Below are positions 3,223-11,004 of a stretch of 64,000 nt of DNA, one piece after another. The position numbers were made by a program, and so were the translations under genes. The notes beneath the pieces were generated by a model. The model was not told the origin of the DNA. It did not search any database and saw only the letters and a list, made by a program, of their open reading frames with translations. Positions within the stretch are counted from its first letter, which is position 1, and each line of letters opens with the position of its first letter. Source of the DNA: Thalassospira australica (lineage in GTDB: Bacteria; Pseudomonadota; Alphaproteobacteria; Rhodospirillales; Thalassospiraceae); the NCBI RefSeq assembly GCF_000763295.1, contig NZ_JRJE01000020.1, forward strand, positions 186,001 through 250,000, read 5' to 3'.

Positions 3223-4569
3223 CTAGGTCTGCTCCCCGTCAACGGTTGGACGGGGAGCTAAAATCAAACCACGTTCACCTGCAATCCGTTGCAGGGTTTT
3301 CAGCCCGCGCGTCAGATCATAAAGCGCTTCCATCTCACCGCGTGCTTTCATCTCTGCGGCGGCTTTGCGCGTGACGACATAAAGGGCGCGAAAGTCGGTA
3401 TCAGATAATGCACGCAACGCGGCCTCCTTGACATTGCGCTCCGGGTCGGGATGGGCAAAGACAAGGGGCGTATCAGGGGCCAGAACCGGGCTGTTTGGGC
3501 GTTGATCCATCGCCATCGTTTCTATCACGATTGACAGTCCCCAGACCATCCAGGCCTGTGTCCAGCGCATATAGTTTCGCCGATCCGGCCCAAGCCGCCC
3601 GATGCCGGCAAAGAACACATCGCGTTCGGGATCAAACAGATTTTCTGCCGCCCATCGGGCAACCTTGACCGCCCCGTCCATATCGCCAAACCTGCACAGA
3701 CTTGCCATGGCTTGGGCTACCGCATGAGCATCACGGTATCCGTCCTTATCGGCAAAACTGCGCGGCAAACCGTTGTGATCAAAGCAATGGCTGCGATAAA
3801 ATCCCCATCCACACGCAAGGGCATCATCAAGCCCCACCATACCTGACGCCCGAAAGCGCCCCAGAAGATCAAGAATGTAGCCGGTATGAAACCCGTCAAT
3901 GAAACCATGGTGGGCACGCGTGCCATAGGTCCAGCCACCATCGGATCGTTGCGCCCTTAAGACACGTGCCACCGCCTGTTCGGATTTTGCATTTGGCCCG
4001 ATAATGCGCAGCAGGGCAAAACCCGCCCACAGACTGGCATTATGAATTTCAACGTCGGTGTGATCGAAATAGGCAAAGTAACTATCACGCCAAAGCGGAC
4101 CGGCGATAAATTCCGCAGCCCGGATAAGGGCCGGATGATCCGCCAGTACGCCCGTTTCCATCAGCCCATCAACACCAAAGCTTGTGACAATCGCGTTGCT
4201 CTGATGGTGTTTGGCGTAAAACGCCCGTGCCTGCCAGGCAAACGGATAACCCCAACCACCATCCGGGTTTTGCAGCGCCAGCAGATCATCCCTGACATCA
4301 GCAAGCACAACACCCGTGCCCGCACCACTCAAAAGCGCAAGCGTTTTGGGATTTACCATATGCGGAATGCGGGCAGCCTTGCGCAAAACATCAGGCCCAC
4401 GTTTGATCGCCTGCACCCAACACAGTCGCGCCAAGCCAAGCCGCCCAAGCCCGCTTGCCTGAAACAACCGGCTTTCAAGCCCGTCAAATGGGTCCGCCCC
4501 GGCAAAGCCATCGCGGGCCATGCGGGCCAGAACCCGGTCGCGTATGTCGATCAAACCGGCTCTATCCAT
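3223..4569 (-). CDS. Predicted alpha/alpha-toroid protein of the polysaccharide locus
   Basis: I chose the ATG at 4569 (448 residues) because a run of G lies six bases upstream; an in-frame ATG at 4575 and an open frame to 4614 also exist. The protein is helical and carries two repeats resembling the QW motifs of prenyltransferase/squalene-cyclase toroids: QNPDGGWG at about 100-107 and QRSDGGWTYG at about 207-216. There is no signal peptide or membrane segment, so it is probably cytoplasmic. It overlaps the end of the upstream ligase-like gene by 19 bases, which suggests coupled translation. Toroid proteins in sugar loci can be lyases, hydrolases, epimerases or cyclases; I cannot say which, and no catalytic residues are recognisable. 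Real gene: sure. Function: unknown. Confidence 0.75.
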   Translation of the reverse strand: MDRAGLIDIRDRVLARMARDGFAGADPFDGLESRLFQASGLGRLGLARLCWVQAIKRGPDVLRKAARIPHMVNPKTLALLSGAGTGVVLADVRDDLLALQNPDGGWGYPFAWQARAFYAKHHQSNAIVTSFGVDGLMETGVLADHPALIRAAEFIAGPLWRDSYFAYFDHTDVEIHNASLWAGFALLRIIGPNAKSEQAVARVLRAQRSDGGWTYGTRAHHGFIDGFHTGYILDLLGRFRASGMVGLDDALACGWGFYRSHCFDHNGLPRSFADKDGYRDAHAVAQAMASLCRFGDMDGAVKVARWAAENLFDPERDVFFAGIGRLGPDRRNYMRWTQAWMVWGLSIVIETMAMDQRPNSPVLAPDTPLVFAHPDPERNVKEAALRALSDTDFRALYVVTRKAAAEMKARGEMEALYDLTRGLKTLQRIAGERGLILAPRPTVDGEQT

Positions 4570-5642
4570 TTGCATCCCCCCCGGCGCACAGAAATCCCGG
4601 CCGCAATACCACAACAGATCAGATAATGCCCGTACGTCAGCGTATTATCCGTCACCATCGTCAACATAACCGAAAGCAACAGACACACCGAAAGGCGCAC
4701 ATGACGCACGGCCCAAAGCATTACAATCCATCCCAACAACCATAATACGGCCCCGACAATCCCGGTTTCAAACAGGATACGGAAATGGTCGTTATGCAAC
4801 GCTCCGAACGACCCAAAAGATATGTGTGATGATAAAATCGCCTCAACCGCGCCTGCCCCGAAGCCAAACCATTGTTGCGCCATTGATGCCGCGCGCCAGA
4901 GTTCCCAGAACTCCTGCCAGAATGGAAAACGCCCGCTGCCATGAGTCAAAAACAGGCGTGGCAGATGATCAACCGCCGCCCATCCCAAAACGCCCACCGC
5001 ACAAAGTGCAAACAACCATGTCAGCACACGTGAAAACCAAATAGCTCCCATAAGGTTGACCAGCATCGCCAAGACCGCAATCCGCGTCTGACTTAGCAAC
5101 ACGGCAATGCCCGCAGTCCCGCCAAGCCAGCGATGCCCGCGCCATTGCGCCACTGAACATAGCGCAAACAACCCCAGAAACAGGAACGGCTGGTTAAGCC
5201 GCATGCCGTCGTGCGTGACGTAAAAGGAACTCGAAAGAACCAAATAAACCACCAGAACCGGAACAATGATACGCAGGCAATCGCGCCCGATCACACACCC
5301 GGCCAAAAGCCCGACCGGCAACATCAAAAGATTGCCGACAAGGCGAAGCTTCTCGACCCCTACTCCACTGCCAACCACAATCACGGTGATAAGCCCCAGC
5401 AGGATCCCCCCGCCGATAAGCGCAGTTGGCGAAAACCTGAGCCCGCGTAAAAAGCCAAGCACCATGATCCCCCAGAACACAAGCAGGATCAGCTTCGCCA
5501 TCATGCCGCCCGCCGCAATCAGCCAAAGCGAACCGCCCATCACCAGATTGCCCAAAAGAACCAACCAGATTGGAAGCACAATACCGTGCGACGCGGAGTG
5601 GCGGCTGTCAGCTGATATCCCCGCAATTGTTCCCCCTGTCAT
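4551..5642 (-). CDS. O-antigen ligase/polymerase-like membrane protein
   Basis: A 363-residue protein built almost entirely of hydrophobic segments, about ten by eye, with a larger loop in the second half. This layout fits the Wzy/WaaL O-antigen polymerase-ligase superfamily, whose members join undecaprenyl-linked glycans at the outer face of the inner membrane. The family has little sequence conservation, so the call rests on topology and on the setting beside a second ligase-like gene, a Wzc-like gene and glycosyltransferases. It is transcribed away from 5750-7075; the 107 bases between the two starts must hold both promoters. The predicted N-terminus is short and polar before the first helix. 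Confidence 0.7.
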   Translation of the reverse strand: MTGGTIAGISADSRHSASHGIVLPIWLVLLGNLVMGGSLWLIAAGGMMAKLILLVFWGIMVLGFLRGLRFSPTALIGGGILLGLITVIVVGSGVGVEKLRLVGNLLMLPVGLLAGCVIGRDCLRIIVPVLVVYLVLSSSFYVTHDGMRLNQPFLFLGLFALCSVAQWRGHRWLGGTAGIAVLLSQTRIAVLAMLVNLMGAIWFSRVLTWLFALCAVGVLGWAAVDHLPRLFLTHGSGRFPFWQEFWELWRAASMAQQWFGFGAGAVEAILSSHISFGSFGALHNDHFRILFETGIVGAVLWLLGWIVMLWAVRHVRLSVCLLLSVMLTMVTDNTLTYGHYLICCGIAAGISVRRGGCKWIEPV

Positions 5643-5749: not shown

Positions 5750-7075
5750 ATGCTCAAGCTGGCGCAAATTTGTCTGATGGCTCAGATCATTCTGACCCCG
5801 CTGATGTTGGGTGGAGCGCGGCCGTGGGCATTGGCGGTTCTGGCGATGCTGACCGGGACCGGCATCCTTGCCGTTTGCATGCGCCCCGGTCCCGTGCGCG
5901 CAGCAGGTTACCTGCGCCATGCCTGGTTGTTTCTGGGCGCATTGATCGTCTGGTGCCTGATACAAAGCCTGCCGATCTGGCCGATACAATCTGATCCGTT
6001 CAAGGCGCCAATGATCGCGCTGATGCCAGATGGCTGGATGGACACGGCCATCTATCTGGTCTGGCTTGGCGGGCTTGTCACCCTGACGTCGCTGATCGGG
6101 CAAGCGTGCGGTCAGCACCTCGTAAACCTTGCAGCCTGCGCCATCGTGATCAGTTGCGCCCTTCAGGTTGCGCTGGCGGCCACATCCGCGCTGTTTGACT
6201 GGAACACAACATACTGGTTTGCCAAGCAGGCCCATCTGGGGGACTGGACCGGCAGTTTTGCCAACCGCAATGCCTTTGGCGCATTGATGGGGTTTGGCGT
6301 TCTTGCCTGTCTGTTTTTCTATGACCACAGCCCGGCGCAATCGGCTGGAAAGCGCCTTGATCGGTCGGGTGGCTGGTTGGCGCTTGCGATCCTGTTTGCC
6401 GCCGCCCTGATCCAAAGCCATTCGCGTCTGGCCTTTGTCATGATGCTGGTTGGGGGCATGGTCTTTGGCCTGCTGCGCACGGCCCCATACGCAAACTTTT
6501 CCAAACGCATGATCTTTGCCTGCTTGGGGGGACTTTTGGTAATCGGCCTTGCCACCCTGATCTCGCCAGAGCTTTTTGTACGCTTTTCCGATCTTTCGCG
6601 CGCCGATCTGATCCAGCGTGATGATCTTTGGCAGACAGCCCTTCTTGCCATCACAGATCGACCAATCACCGGATTTGGCCCGGATAGCATCACGCTTGCC
6701 CTTGGTCATTTTGCAACCCCGAAGCTGAACACACATGCCAACTGGTTTAGCAGCCATAACCTGTGGCTGGACGGGGCCATCATGTTTGGTGTTCCGATCA
6801 TGCTGGGCATTGGTCTGGCATTAAGTGCGGCCATTAAAATCGTACTCAGAACCTGCCCCCACACCGCAAACCGCGCCCTTCTGATCGCGTTGTTTGCGAT
6901 GACACTTCCTAGCACATTTGGCGACTGGGTCATGATCATTCCTGCCCTTACTCTGCCGGTGGTATTGCTGATGGTGGCAAGCTTTGAAGCCGGGCTTGCA
7001 GGGCAAGCGACAAGGCCCGAATACGGGGATCACGCGGTGCAATCACCCGCGCCTGATCAAGCAACCTTGCACTAG
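5750..7075 (+). CDS. O-antigen ligase family protein (Wzy_C-like)
   Basis: A 441-residue polytopic membrane protein. The central region contains GDWTGSFANRNAFG and, later, a GFGPDS loop followed by HANWFSSHNLWLD. These fit the Wzy_C/O-antigen ligase pattern of a large periplasmic loop with a conserved arginine-asparagine segment and a late histidine. It probably polymerises or transfers the locus glycan in the periplasm. Its last 128 bases are antisense to the end of the small gene at 6948-7361. A second ligase-like protein is encoded divergently at 4551-5642, so one may be a polymerase and the other a ligase; sequence alone does not assign them. Confidence 0.8.
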   Translation: MLKLAQICLMAQIILTPLMLGGARPWALAVLAMLTGTGILAVCMRPGPVRAAGYLRHAWLFLGALIVWCLIQSLPIWPIQSDPFKAPMIALMPDGWMDTAIYLVWLGGLVTLTSLIGQACGQHLVNLAACAIVISCALQVALAATSALFDWNTTYWFAKQAHLGDWTGSFANRNAFGALMGFGVLACLFFYDHSPAQSAGKRLDRSGGWLALAILFAAALIQSHSRLAFVMMLVGGMVFGLLRTAPYANFSKRMIFACLGGLLVIGLATLISPELFVRFSDLSRADLIQRDDLWQTALLAITDRPITGFGPDSITLALGHFATPKLNTHANWFSSHNLWLDGAIMFGVPIMLGIGLALSAAIKIVLRTCPHTANRALLIALFAMTLPSTFGDWVMIIPALTLPVVLLMVASFEAGLAGQATRPEYGDHAVQSPAPDQATLH

Positions 7076-7361
7076 CCGCAAGGTCAGCCTGCGCAAGGTT
7101 GATGGCCTTTAACGTCAATAAAACCGGATCAAACGGATCAGAGACAAGTGCGTCTGCCAGCCCATCACGAACCTGTTGCCCATCACCGGAACCAAGGGCA
7201 CGCACCAACCGTTGCGCACTTAGTTGCGCAGAAAAACCATCGGCATTTTCAAAGGCCGATGGTTTGTCATTGACCTGCGAGAAGGCGCGCACCTCTGAAA
7301 ACAGGGCCACGCCCCCCGCTCCCAGCACCAAGCCCCCAATGACAAGCAGGACATATTTCAT
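6948..7361 (-). CDS. Small membrane-anchored helical protein of the polysaccharide operon
   Basis: A 137-residue protein with an N-terminal signal anchor (MKYVLLVIGGLVLGAGGVAL) and a helical, alanine-rich body that looks like one or two TPR units (DPFDPVLLTLKAINLAQADL and a following helix pair). The start overlaps the wzc-like stop by four bases (ATGA), so it is translated as part of that operon. I do not recognise the family. A periplasmic helical accessory to the Wzc-like protein or to polymerisation is a guess from position. The 3' part overlaps the convergent ligase gene by 128 bases, which is unusual for two real genes. Coding support comes from the operon overlap and the coherent N-terminus. 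Confidence 0.65.
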   Translation of the reverse strand: MKYVLLVIGGLVLGAGGVALFSEVRAFSQVNDKPSAFENADGFSAQLSAQRLVRALGSGDGQQVRDGLADALVSDPFDPVLLTLKAINLAQADLAASARLLDQARVIAPRDPRIRALSLALQARLQSLPPSAIPPAE

Positions 7362-9538
7362 GACACCTGCCCGGTGTTCGCGGTTGGCGATATTCCCTTG
7401 CCATAAGCCACCCGCGGCTGCGCACCGTTTAAAACAATCCCTTCCGGGGCAATGCCCGCTGCACTCAACTGGTCAAGGGCGTGGGCAATATCCCGACGCT
7501 TGCTGTGGCCACACCGCAGGGCAAATAGCCTGACATCCGCCAAACCAAGTGCAACCACCCCATCCGCAACCGACAGGATCGGCGGTGTGTCAATAATCAC
7601 ATGATCAAACCGCGCCCGCAGGTGGGTGACAATTTCTGCCAACCGCCTGTCAATCAGGCCCGTGGCAATATGGCCAGGCACAGCCATGCGCGCCCCAAGG
7701 TAATAATATCCATCTTGCCCCTTTGCTGCGGTCAGAACGTCATCAAGCACCACATCACCTGACATCACTGCACTCAGATCCGGGCGCATTGCATCACCGA
7801 TTTTAACGTGCGCAGGCAAAGCCGGATCATGCAGGTCCGCATCCAATACAATCACAGACGCCCCCAACCCGCCAAGCTTGTCGGCCAATGCGTGGGTGAT
7901 GTGGCTTTTGCCATCTCCTGAAACCGGCGATGCAATTGCAATGACCTGCCCGGTTTGATCATCAGGTCTGTCGCCTTCACCACCTTGCGCCATAATGCGC
8001 ATCAAGACGGCCAAATGCCCGGCTGCCTCCTCAAACGAAGAGGTTGTCTTGTTTGAGCCTGCCCCACCGCGGCGATCGGGGATGCGGGCAAACAACGGAA
8101 CGCCAAGGTGGGGTTGCGGGTCAAAATCGTCATCAACGGTCTGATCAAAATAATGGCGCAATAATGCGGCAACAACTGCGGCAAAAAGCGCAACCATGAT
8201 GGCCAGAACACTCAAGTGACGTTTGCTGGGGAACTCCGCCGCACGCGGCAACATCGCGGCGCGAATGATTTCGGCGTCGCCATGAAATGCGGCCAATGCC
8301 CGGCGCAGCGCCTGAACCCGCTGCCCAAGTTCCTGCAATTCAGTACGGGCCATGGCAACAGATCGCATCAATGCTGCCTGCCCTTGAACGCTTGTCGTGC
8401 GCGCGGCCATCCGATCCTGCCACTGATCACGCTGGGCAATGATCAGGTGTAATCTTTCCTCGGCCTCTTTGAGGGCGATATCCATACTGCCAGAAACGGT
8501 TTCTGCCGCCCGCGCAAGCGCCATGCGCGCATCGTCAAGCTCCTGCTTTTTGCCCTGCATGCGGGGGTGCCTGGGACCATATCGTTGATCAAGAACGGCA
8601 AATTCCTGCTTTTTGTCTTCAAGCTGTTCTGAAAGCTGCTGAACCGTTGGGTGGCCTACGACATCGGGGATCGCCAAAAGATCATCAAGGGTTTCTGCCG
8701 CCCTGCGGTTTTCACGGGCAAGACGCAGGGCCACGACCTCCTGCCCCAGTTTTTCGGCCTGCTCATCCAGGGCATAAATGCGATCAAGCATTCGGTTGCC
8801 CTCATCCGCATCAAGCATTCCGACCCTGCTTTGCGCCCGCGCCAGATCACCTTCAAGTACGGCCAGTTCACTTTGGGCAGCGTCAAACTGTGAAACGGCC
8901 TCCGTCAGTTGACGTCGGAGTGTGCGTTTTTGTTGGTTTTCACGGTGCCATACATAACTTTCGATAACCGCCTGCAACGCCTTTTGCGCTATTTCCGGCT
9001 GAGCCGCGCTAAAGCCAACCTCAATCACCGCTGCATTACCAACCCGGCTTGCATTCAGTCCCCCACGAAGGCGGGTGACCATGTCGGCTTCATCGGCAGG
9101 ACGGTTTTCTTCAAAAGAAGGCTGCTTGAACACCGCCACCAATTGAGCAAACAAGCCGTCATCTGGCACCGACATCAGAGTAATACCTTCGCCGCGCAAG
9201 ACCGATGCTGCTGCCTCAAGCGTCTGCTGGCTTTTAATCGCGGCAATCGCGGTTTCAATCTGTTGCGCGCTCAGAACGCCACGCGAAATTGCCCCATCAT
9301 CAGTCCAGACACGGCCTGCAATTTGCGCGTCCAGCGACAAACCAATTTCCGCCACCGCACGATAGGTCCCCCGCCAATTGGCAACCAGGGCAAAAAGCAA
9401 AACAAGCGTGACAACAAAGCTCAGGATCGCAACACCACGCCGCTGCCAAACAATAATCACCAAATCGCGTAGAGACGGATCAAAACGTTCGGTTGCCTGA
9501 CTGCTGACAGAACCGGTGGGCACATGGTTTTGCATCAT
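7358..9538 (-). CDS. Wzc/GumC-like polysaccharide copolymerase with BY-kinase domain
   Basis: A 726-residue inner-membrane protein of the PCP-2a type. It has a Wzz-type N-terminus with a membrane helix near 36-53, a long periplasmic coiled-coil region (about 190-430), a second membrane helix near 440-465, and a cytoplasmic ATPase domain. Walker A is PVSGDGKS (538-545), Walker A' is VIVLDADLHDP (562-572) and Walker B is VIIDTPP (about 647-653). Such proteins control chain length and export of exopolysaccharide. The C-terminus has only one tyrosine (about 712) rather than the usual cluster, so autophosphorylation control may be reduced or absent. It overlaps both neighbours by ATGA. Confidence 0.88.
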   Translation of the reverse strand: MMQNHVPTGSVSSQATERFDPSLRDLVIIVWQRRGVAILSFVVTLVLLFALVANWRGTYRAVAEIGLSLDAQIAGRVWTDDGAISRGVLSAQQIETAIAAIKSQQTLEAAASVLRGEGITLMSVPDDGLFAQLVAVFKQPSFEENRPADEADMVTRLRGGLNASRVGNAAVIEVGFSAAQPEIAQKALQAVIESYVWHRENQQKRTLRRQLTEAVSQFDAAQSELAVLEGDLARAQSRVGMLDADEGNRMLDRIYALDEQAEKLGQEVVALRLARENRRAAETLDDLLAIPDVVGHPTVQQLSEQLEDKKQEFAVLDQRYGPRHPRMQGKKQELDDARMALARAAETVSGSMDIALKEAEERLHLIIAQRDQWQDRMAARTTSVQGQAALMRSVAMARTELQELGQRVQALRRALAAFHGDAEIIRAAMLPRAAEFPSKRHLSVLAIMVALFAAVVAALLRHYFDQTVDDDFDPQPHLGVPLFARIPDRRGGAGSNKTTSSFEEAAGHLAVLMRIMAQGGEGDRPDDQTGQVIAIASPVSGDGKSHITHALADKLGGLGASVIVLDADLHDPALPAHVKIGDAMRPDLSAVMSGDVVLDDVLTAAKGQDGYYYLGARMAVPGHIATGLIDRRLAEIVTHLRARFDHVIIDTPPILSVADGVVALGLADVRLFALRCGHSKRRDIAHALDQLSAAGIAPEGIVLNGAQPRVAYGKGISPTANTGQVS

Positions 9539-11004
9539 CGCGGGCTTGCATCCTCAAGCTCCAGAATACCTTCAAGCTTTTGATAATCCTGCGCAGCCCA
9601 AAAAATGCTTCCGGTCTGGTTTCTGCGCGGGTCAACATCCAGAAACGAATATAGATTGTCCCATTCTGTTTCGGGTTGGCTGACGGGTTTGACGACCCCG
9701 ACCTTTTCGCTTTGCACCGCACTTTCGGCGGATGTCGGTGTGTCAAAAAGCTCTGCGGGGCGGTTTGATGTCCCGCCAAACAACCGCCCGGCCAAATCGG
9801 GTGCAAAGCCTGCCACCAGACTTTGAAACTGATCGGGCCTTGGATGCATATCGGTTAACCCAAGCACGACACCGCCCAGAACCGTCTCAAGCAAAAAACG
9901 GCTCGCGCCGGTGTTGGCCAAAACCACATCAAACAGTCCCAGCACTATTTCAAGGTTTTCCTCGGTCACTTGCCAGTCGATGGCTGTGGCCTCGGCGTCA
10001 GTCTCCGGCGTGCGCGATAATATCCCCGCAACCAACTGATCAATTATCTGGCTCAGATCATTCGGGTCCTTGAGCTCGGTAATATTGGCTTCCAGCCACG
10101 AAATTGCTGATTGCTGATCCGTCAGTTCAAACCTGTCTGACGTGATCGTTTGTGCCTGCCCCTCCGCCGCGGCCCACATGATCGGCATCAATGCGCCAAC
10201 CACGGCCAGTTTTCGCAGGATGCTGCGTATCCGTGCGCACTGCATCTTTGCAATTGTCGGCAATACCATTCGGGCAAATGCGCTTAGACCATGGGCATAT
10301 CGCGGGATCATGTATCGCGGCTGGCAAGCAATGCGCCACAGGAACTCGATCCCCGTCCGTTGCCATATGATTGGCGCACGCTTTACCTCACCTGCCAGAA
10401 CGTCAAACGCCCCGCCAACCCCCATGGCAAAACGGCATCCGGTTTGGGGAGCAAAGTGATCAACGAATATCTCCTTGCGTGGGGAAGGCAAGGCAACAAA
10501 CAGGGCATCTGCCTTCGCCTGCGCGACACATTTCACAAGTTTTTGGTCATCCATCTCATAACCATGATGGGTCCCGGCAATGATCAGGCCGGGAAAACGC
10601 AGAGGCAATTCCACAGACAACCGATCAAGCACCTCTTGTCGGGCGCCCAGCAAAAAGACACGCACACGGTCATGGGCGAAATGCCCAAGCAGATCGGTCA
10701 TAAGTTCAATGCCGGTCACCCGCTCTGGCACCTTGATCCCCATCATGCGTGCAGCCCAGACAATCCCCATACCATCGGCTGACAAGCAGTCCGCGCGCGC
10801 AAGCGCCCCAAACAAAGCGTCATTGCGCACCGCACCGGGCAGTTTTATGGCGTTTAAGGAATGCTGGCAAAAACAGGTGGGGGATCGGCGATCCGGTGAC
10901 TTTGCAAGTGCGTTTCTGATATCGCTGCAAAGTTCAGGGCGGGTACGAACATCAAGAGACAGGCCAAAAAATTCCGATCTTTCTACTGTCTTGGCATTTC
11001 GCAT
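9535..11004 (-). CDS. WecG/TagA/CpsF glycosyltransferase fused to an exported-looking helical domain
   Basis: The start at 11004 is preferred because a G-rich stretch precedes it; in-frame ATGs at 11016 and 11052 are alternatives. The product is 489 residues. Residues 10 to about 240 are a complete GT26 (WecG/TagA/CpsF) domain: SADGMG with the likely catalytic Asp77, then FLLGARQE, ALPSPRKE and GVGGAFDVLAGEVKRAP. GT26 enzymes add ManNAc or ManNAcA to lipid-linked sugars on the cytoplasmic face. From residue 254 the sequence reads like a fresh signal peptide: basic residues, a hydrophobic stretch, then EGQAQ. About 200 helical residues of unknown family follow. The frame is open throughout. 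An internal ATG at 10245 could also start a separate secreted protein, though its ribosome site is weak. Confidence 0.85.
   Translation of the reverse strand: MRNAKTVERSEFFGLSLDVRTRPELCSDIRNALAKSPDRRSPTCFCQHSLNAIKLPGAVRNDALFGALARADCLSADGMGIVWAARMMGIKVPERVTGIELMTDLLGHFAHDRVRVFLLGARQEVLDRLSVELPLRFPGLIIAGTHHGYEMDDQKLVKCVAQAKADALFVALPSPRKEIFVDHFAPQTGCRFAMGVGGAFDVLAGEVKRAPIIWQRTGIEFLWRIACQPRYMIPRYAHGLSAFARMVLPTIAKMQCARIRSILRKLAVVGALMPIMWAAAEGQAQTITSDRFELTDQQSAISWLEANITELKDPNDLSQIIDQLVAGILSRTPETDAEATAIDWQVTEENLEIVLGLFDVVLANTGASRFLLETVLGGVVLGLTDMHPRPDQFQSLVAGFAPDLAGRLFGGTSNRPAELFDTPTSAESAVQSEKVGVVKPVSQPETEWDNLYSFLDVDPRRNQTGSIFWAAQDYQKLEGILELEDASPR

Follow-up and report, generated by a model that had tools for sequence, protein, structure and literature searches.

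A GT26 glycosyltransferase continued by a signal-peptide-like segment and a putative exported partner of Wzc in the genus Thalassospira

The 64,000-nucleotide stretch of the Thalassospira australica genome that we analyzed (contig NZ_JRJE01000020.1, forward-strand positions 186,001 to 250,000; hereafter the window) contains a polysaccharide locus in which a single open reading frame (ORF) joins a glycosyltransferase (GT) of the GT26 (WecG/TagA/CpsF) family to an internal signal-peptide-like segment and a 205-residue tail (table 1). The ORF lies on the minus strand, with its ATG starting at 11004 and its stop codon at 9537-9535, and the limits given in an earlier note on this DNA are right; read on the plus strand, the interval contains several stops in the frame shown. 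The stop overlaps the start of the gene for a Wzc-like chain-length/kinase protein. The fusion, unexplained by the family libraries searched, is, on its sequence, most simply interpreted as a GT26 enzyme to which a partner of Wzc is attached for export.

Table 1. Features of the fusion ORF and of its neighborhood in the window
Feature	Position	Strand	Basis or remark
Whole ORF: GT26 enzyme, internal signal-like segment and secreted-type tail, 489 aa	9535..11004	-	One frame in 29/29 genus genomes, one with an internal TAA
WecG/TagA/CpsF (PF03808) domain, residues 71-236	10297..10794	-	Pfam match; model matches TagA 7n41
Counterpart of the membrane-associating C-terminal appendage of TagA, about residues 205-250	10255..10392	-	Alignments and PMC6493773 (available part); limits approximate
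Basic, hydrophobic and AxA|Q signal-peptide-like segment, residues 254-284	10153..10245	-	End placed by eye
Six-helix domain predicted within the tail, residues 297-409	9778..10116	-	AlphaFold2
Predicted disordered arm, residues 410-489, with a near-invariant S-P-R at the C-terminus	9538..9777	-	AlphaFold2, alignment
Start codon (ATG) of the Wzc-like gene, which overlaps the fusion ORF stop (TGA) as ATGA	9536..9538	-	Overlap in 23/29 genomes
Wzc-like chain-length/kinase protein, 726 aa, co-diverging with the tail	7358..9538	-	Family matches, divergence analysis
Small protein behind wzc: N-terminal hydrophobic segment and TPR-like sequence (our reading)	6948..7361	-	
Wzy-type polymerase (PF04932), convergent	5750..7075	+	Pfam

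The N-terminal half of the ORF is a complete GT26 enzyme, as the earlier note had recognized. The PF03808 match has an E value of 4.9e-51 and a score of 173.3 bits, compared with a curated cut-off of 27.4, and the predicted model matches the TagA structure 7n41 (Foldseek E 5.0e-13, TMt 0.91). In the alignment, D77 takes the place of the catalytic Asp of T. italicus TagA (D65) and is invariant in 26 rows, as is R224, the counterpart of R214 of TagA; the equivalents of R221 and R224 of the TagA appendage are ambiguous because of a gap and of the alignment end, respectively. According to the available part of PMC6493773, this appendage is required for TagA activity and tethers the enzyme to the membrane. 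A membrane-entering helix placed right behind it is therefore physically plausible, and one helix spanning residues 229-281 is predicted to run out of the GT appendage. Searches of the T. australica genome revealed one WecG, one initiating sugar transferase, and one Wza-type export protein, the last two adjoining a BBP2_2 beta-barrel on contig C31, apart from the GT/Wzc/Wzy locus. As the genome has a single WecG and its one initiating transferase lies elsewhere, the fused GT is probably the second-sugar enzyme of a Wzy-type polysaccharide. At the C31 locus itself (L193, genome G000, 8027-10539), the initiating sugar transferase, the beta-barrel, and the Wza-type protein, which is short (184 aa), lie together.

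The tail could not be assigned to a family. The earlier note had described an unknown helical domain of about 200 residues, and the C-terminal 245 residues indeed match no Pfam or NCBIfam family at E <= 1. None of the 29 mature tails collected from the genus matches any Pfam family at E <= 0.01, including PF02397, Wzz, and GNVR, and PHROGs gave no match for the tail. Compared with solved structures, the tail profile yielded no match at E <= 1 and one at E 1.1. AlphaFold2, run with 23 sequences, predicts six helices over model residues 12-124, with means of 66-92 over ten-residue blocks, followed by disorder (mean predicted local distance difference test score 66.9, predicted TM-score 0.54). 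Unrelated helical proteins reach VIA Z values of up to 9.5 with this model, under the value of about 13 that the tool advises for helical models. No description of the fusion protein was found in the open-access library searched, which is not proof that none exists.

The tail appears to be maintained as a protein. Across 13 chosen pairs, the ratio of nonsynonymous to synonymous substitution rates (dN/dS) is 0.08-0.34 for the tail versus 0.12-0.30 for the GT part, indicating purifying selection, and the tail diverges faster (mean distance 0.74 vs. 0.38). At the C-terminus, S-P is invariant and the final R is present in 28 of the 29 genomes, where it is written with four different codons (AGA, CGA, CGT, and CGG). 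Among the six genomes lacking the ATGA overlap with wzc, five tails end in SPR and one in SPY. Since four arginine codons are used and SPR is kept in five of these six genomes, the SPR end looks like the product of selection on the protein. A general sorting tag was considered and rejected: among 648 six-frame stop-to-stop frames of at least 120 codons, not vetted as genes and taken from 16 loci of the same genome with the window excluded, none ends in SPR and one ends in SPK.

A PF03808 search identified one long WecG frame of 484-595 codons in each of the 29 Thalassospira genomes, that of T. australica included; G019, G021, and G015 carry, in addition, ordinary WecG frames of 276-291 codons. 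In none of the 29 does a stop lie between the GT domain and the tail. The fusion frame being present in all of them, a sequencing error separating two genes, an eventuality raised in the earlier note, is ruled out. So is a known or usual GT26 extension: among the best 80 of 108 relatives in a GTDB scan (L111 counted once despite a second, partial match on its opposite strand), 239-303 residues follow the GT-profile match in the 22 Thalassospira-group loci (L083-L104), versus 8-69 in all 58 WecG loci of other taxa. At the order level, 15 matches from outside the genus had open frames of at least 430 codons; all but a weak partial match in G088 were fetched, and two shorter ones were added. Fourteen of these 16 frames have 11-43 residues after the match, and the other two are fusions to PF02397. 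At the class level, the fetched set comprised all ten above-cut-off matches outside the genus with frames of at least 400 codons and one of 375, with three weak partial matches unfetched, and 14-48 residues follow the GT match. As only 11-48 residues follow the match in these other long frames, the two PF02397 fusions aside, their extra length lies before it.

A profile built from the 29 genus tails recovers all 29. It gave only two marginal matches, judged to be chance, in 268 other genomes of the order (G283 and G231; E 0.006-0.007) and, among 385 genomes of the class, matched only two, both from the genus Thalassospira; each genome contributes at most 10 and at most 7 scored candidates, respectively, to these searches, so that distant relatives may have been missed. 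In a plasmid collection, 221 records match the query, none over 80% of its length, and the 40 matches listed all end at or before query residue 285. On the basis of these searches, the fusion is conserved in the genus and absent elsewhere in the sets searched.

The junction between the two halves resembles a signal peptide in its organization. Met254, encoded at 10245, is followed by MQCARIRSILRKLAVVGALMPIMWAAAEGQA|Q, the segment ending in AAAEGQA|Q, which agrees with the basic, hydrophobic, AXA-like stretch reported in the earlier note. The net charge before the hydrophobic core is +2 to +7 in all 29 genomes, and the charge after the site is neutral or negative in 27; with the site placed by eye, the residue at -1 is small (A, G, or S) in all 29, and Q occupies +1 in 25. 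The charged n-region, the hydrophobic core, and the small -1 residue of a type I signal peptide are thus present (29/29 for charge and for -1). An automatic AxA-Q test was positive for 21 of the 29 internal segments, compared with 33 of 528 other and 15 of 52 N-terminal hydrophobic segments in a 0.32-Mb genome sample and with 4 of 20 first membrane segments of Wzc (3 of the 23 loci gave none); the segment sequences are related, and these counts do not represent independent events. Automatic picking delivered 28 segments, missing that of G012 and mispicking those of G015 and G005. Over these 28, the two mispicked included, the hydrophobic stretch has a median length of 18 (range 12-21), versus 20-24 for the Wzc segment.

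Such a segment might also stay uncut. As a signal anchor it would make the GT and its periplasmic tail one bitopic protein tethering chain initiation to Wzc, a possible arrangement but one that we find rather doubtful. The evidence on topology serves it equally well, the topology being common to both readings, the single predicted helix extends from the GT appendage, and the hydrophobic stretch reaches 21 in some members. However, most members have a stretch shorter than the Wzc membrane anchor of the same strains and retain the AxA|Q-like end although the segment itself diverges fast. We therefore lean toward cleavage rather than anchoring. A third fate, suggested in the earlier note, is synthesis of the tail as a separate protein from the internal ATG at 10245. 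In T. australica, Met254 would indeed provide a signal-peptide-like N-terminus, but this ATG is not preceded by a Shine-Dalgarno-like match of at least three bases, and an ATG lies within one codon of its position in 3 of the 29 genomes. In 18, ATG is absent from the interval between codons -36 and -20, counted from the putative cleavage site; GTG and TTG codons are scattered in this interval, few of them with a Shine-Dalgarno-like match of more than four bases. Together with the absence of any stop between GT domain and tail, this makes an internal start highly improbable.

Amino acid composition points to the compartment of the tail. Over 23 loci, cysteine accounts for 2 of 4,901 residues in the tails versus 148 of 5,244 in the GT parts. 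This contrast mirrors that within Wzc, whose periplasmic part has no cysteine in 7,400 residues (20 of the 23 loci) versus 34 in 5,290 for the kinase part (23 loci), and is thus a sign of a periplasmic tail. Charge orientation, the signal-peptide-type motif, the near absence of cysteine, and a divergence that tracks the periplasmic part of Wzc together suggest that the tail is periplasmic. At the level of sequence, these data support the proposal of the earlier note that a cytoplasmic enzyme would bear a segment entering the membrane and, beyond it, a periplasmic portion connected with the Wzc-like protein encoded next. Alternatively, the hydrophobic helix could be merely an additional membrane-bound helix and the tail could regulate the GT from inside the cell. 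In favor of this reading, TagA-type enzymes bind the membrane via C-terminal helices (PMC6493773, available part) and the Caulobacter GT26 enzyme HfsJ is inhibited by a separate partner, HfiA (PMC3900383, available part). A cytoplasmic tail is nonetheless rendered improbable by the depletion of cysteine, by the AxA|Q motif, and by a divergence that follows the periplasmic part of Wzc over and above the kinase part.

Divergence among the 23 loci associates the tail with Wzc. Given the GT, the partial correlation of tail distances is 0.69 with whole Wzc, and likewise 0.69 with its periplasmic part, compared with 0.09 for the second Wzy-like gene and 0.08 for the upstream GT4 gene. The correlation with the periplasmic part persists given both the GT and the kinase part (r 0.46; permutation p 0.0002, an optimistic value as the 23 loci are related). 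Conversely, the kinase part adds almost nothing given the GT and the periplasmic part (r 0.02), and the tail follows its own GT only weakly given the periplasmic part (r 0.14, p 0.07). A comparison of L092 (T. lucentensis DSM 14000) with L096 (T. lohafexi) displays this relationship along the DNA. Up to residue 249, identity stays at about 0.9; it drops to 0.5-0.73 from the tail through wzc and the sequence beyond it into wzy, and then returns to about 0.9. Synonymous divergence (dS) is 0.24 for the GT, 1.73 for the tail, and 1.03 for wzc, versus 0.16 for the upstream GT4 gene and 0.20 for the second Wzy-like gene. The breakpoint at residue 249 lies behind the GT match, which ends at 238, and ahead of the hydrophobic core (254). 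As the replaced block starts at the junction of GT and signal, at least one pair has its module boundary inside the ORF. The tail and wzc show a similar excess of dS, near or past saturation, in a second lineage pair, L098/L099 versus L100.

Several observations weigh against an exported tail acting with Wzc. The fold search names no clear relative of the tail and returns only generic helical matches (best Foldseek E 0.24), and the helices of the tail also contain moderately hydrophobic 12-mers. The AxA test without Q does not discriminate, being positive for 27 of 28 internal, 301 of 528 other, 41 of 52 N-terminal, and 19 of 20 Wzc segments, and motif-based calls cannot separate a cleaved signal from a short anchor. 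Individual members deviate: the G008 tail has P at -3, and those of G006, G014, G001, and G018 lack Q at +1. In G012 (locus L008, minus-strand frame), one in-frame TAA lies inside the GT domain, with the junction and the tail open; either this genome can do without the GT half or its assembly contains an error. Given the GT alone, the tail also correlates with the kinase part of Wzc (r 0.61) and with Wzy (r 0.37). The tail often diverges independently: in most other pairs with a GT dS near 1, wzc has a dS close to that of the GT and the tail alone is higher, the block pattern being confined to two lineage pairs and dS values above 1 being near saturation. Because the tail and wzc are adjacent, shared recombination tracts can yield co-divergence without contact.

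These last points bear on the possibility that the tail has no role with Wzc, its co-divergence arising from linkage and from a shared recombination edge at the junction. The gene order GT-tail-Wzc, the contiguity of the block replaced between L092 and L096, and the greater divergence of the tail than of wzc in most pairs with a GT dS near 1 are all compatible with it. However, the tail adjoins its own GT just as it adjoins Wzc and yet follows Wzc more closely, the kinase part has no further effect once the periplasmic part is known, and the excess in tail plus wzc recurs in the second lineage pair. We consider an association by linkage alone unlikely; linkage between neighbors and a simply faster tail are partial explanations of the co-divergence.

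On balance, we favor a two-compartment protein whose exported tail would partner the periplasmic domain of Wzc, cleavage of the segment by signal peptidase I seeming more probable than its retention as an anchor. In such a protein, the GT26 domain on the inner face of the membrane would, as expected from its family, add a sugar to an undecaprenyl-linked acceptor. The appendage lying on the membrane would continue into the signal-peptide-like segment, inserted in an N-in/C-out orientation, which would export the 205-residue tail, a helical domain with a flexible arm ending in SPR. Once in the periplasm, the tail could contact the periplasmic domain of the Wzc-like protein, whose gene comes next and usually overlaps, and a single message would thus supply both chain start and chain-length control/export. 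Cleavage would leave a membrane-bound GT and a free periplasmic partner of Wzc. More tentatively, signal peptidase I might thereby release a genus-specific periplasmic protein governing the chain-length/export activity of Wzc, with initiation and export fixed at 1:1 by translation.

An open question about Wzx/Wzy pathways is how cytoplasmic chain assembly is coupled to periplasmic polymerization and export. A natural fusion, in all genomes of the genus examined, between a chain-building enzyme and a putative periplasmic protein co-diverging with Wzc offers a separable handle on this coupling, as the tail can be removed, set free, or exchanged without loss of the enzyme. The segment, if cleaved, would also exemplify an internal signal peptide located behind a soluble enzyme domain in a bacterium.

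The remainder of the locus encodes several other proteins. The small protein behind wzc has no credible family match in Pfam, NCBIfam, or PHROGs; it was found in 20 of the 23 loci, phmmer missing it in L101, L102, and L103. Two Wzy_C-like proteins are encoded at the same locus, at 5750-7075 (plus strand) and at 4551-5642 (minus strand), the latter scoring below the Pfam cut-off. Next to them, the protein encoded at 3223-4614 (minus strand) weakly matches squalene/oxidosqualene cyclase models (E 3.1e-7, far below the cut-off) and has no Pfam match at E 0.001.

Among known systems, the closest counterparts of the N-terminal half are the GT26 enzymes TagA/TarA, represented by T. italicus TagA (7mpk, 7n41, 5wb4, and 5wfg) and B. 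subtilis TagA, which share its fold, its catalytic Asp, and a membrane-associating C-terminal appendage. TagA ends after the appendage, the solved chains having 195-244 residues, whereas the Thalassospira ORF continues for about 240 residues with an export-type segment. In two genomes of the same order (L165, 701-2401, minus strand; L166, 1161-2789, plus strand), WecG is fused C-terminally to PF02397, the two activities usually being consecutive steps of the pathway. These PF03808-PF02397 proteins likewise carry about 250 additional C-terminal residues, but their extension is an initiating sugar transferase, whereas the Thalassospira tail has no PF02397 match and looks secreted. Structural matches of the tail to known alpha-helical repeat folds (HEAT/TPR-like) stay under the advised significance (best Foldseek E 0.24; VIA Z up to 9.5, where about 13 is advised). 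The Wzc/Wzz chain-length proteins are represented in the neighboring gene by the proposed partner, and the tail itself has no Wzz or GNVR match (0 of 29 tails). The Caulobacter holdfast system, compared here by its description only, also combines an alphaproteobacterial WecG/TagA enzyme of a surface polysaccharide pathway, HfsJ, with a dedicated partner protein, HfiA. HfsJ is proposed to act as the second-sugar enzyme, like the probable role of the fused GT; HfiA is a separate inhibitor for which the available part of the source mentions no periplasmic tail (PMC3900383).

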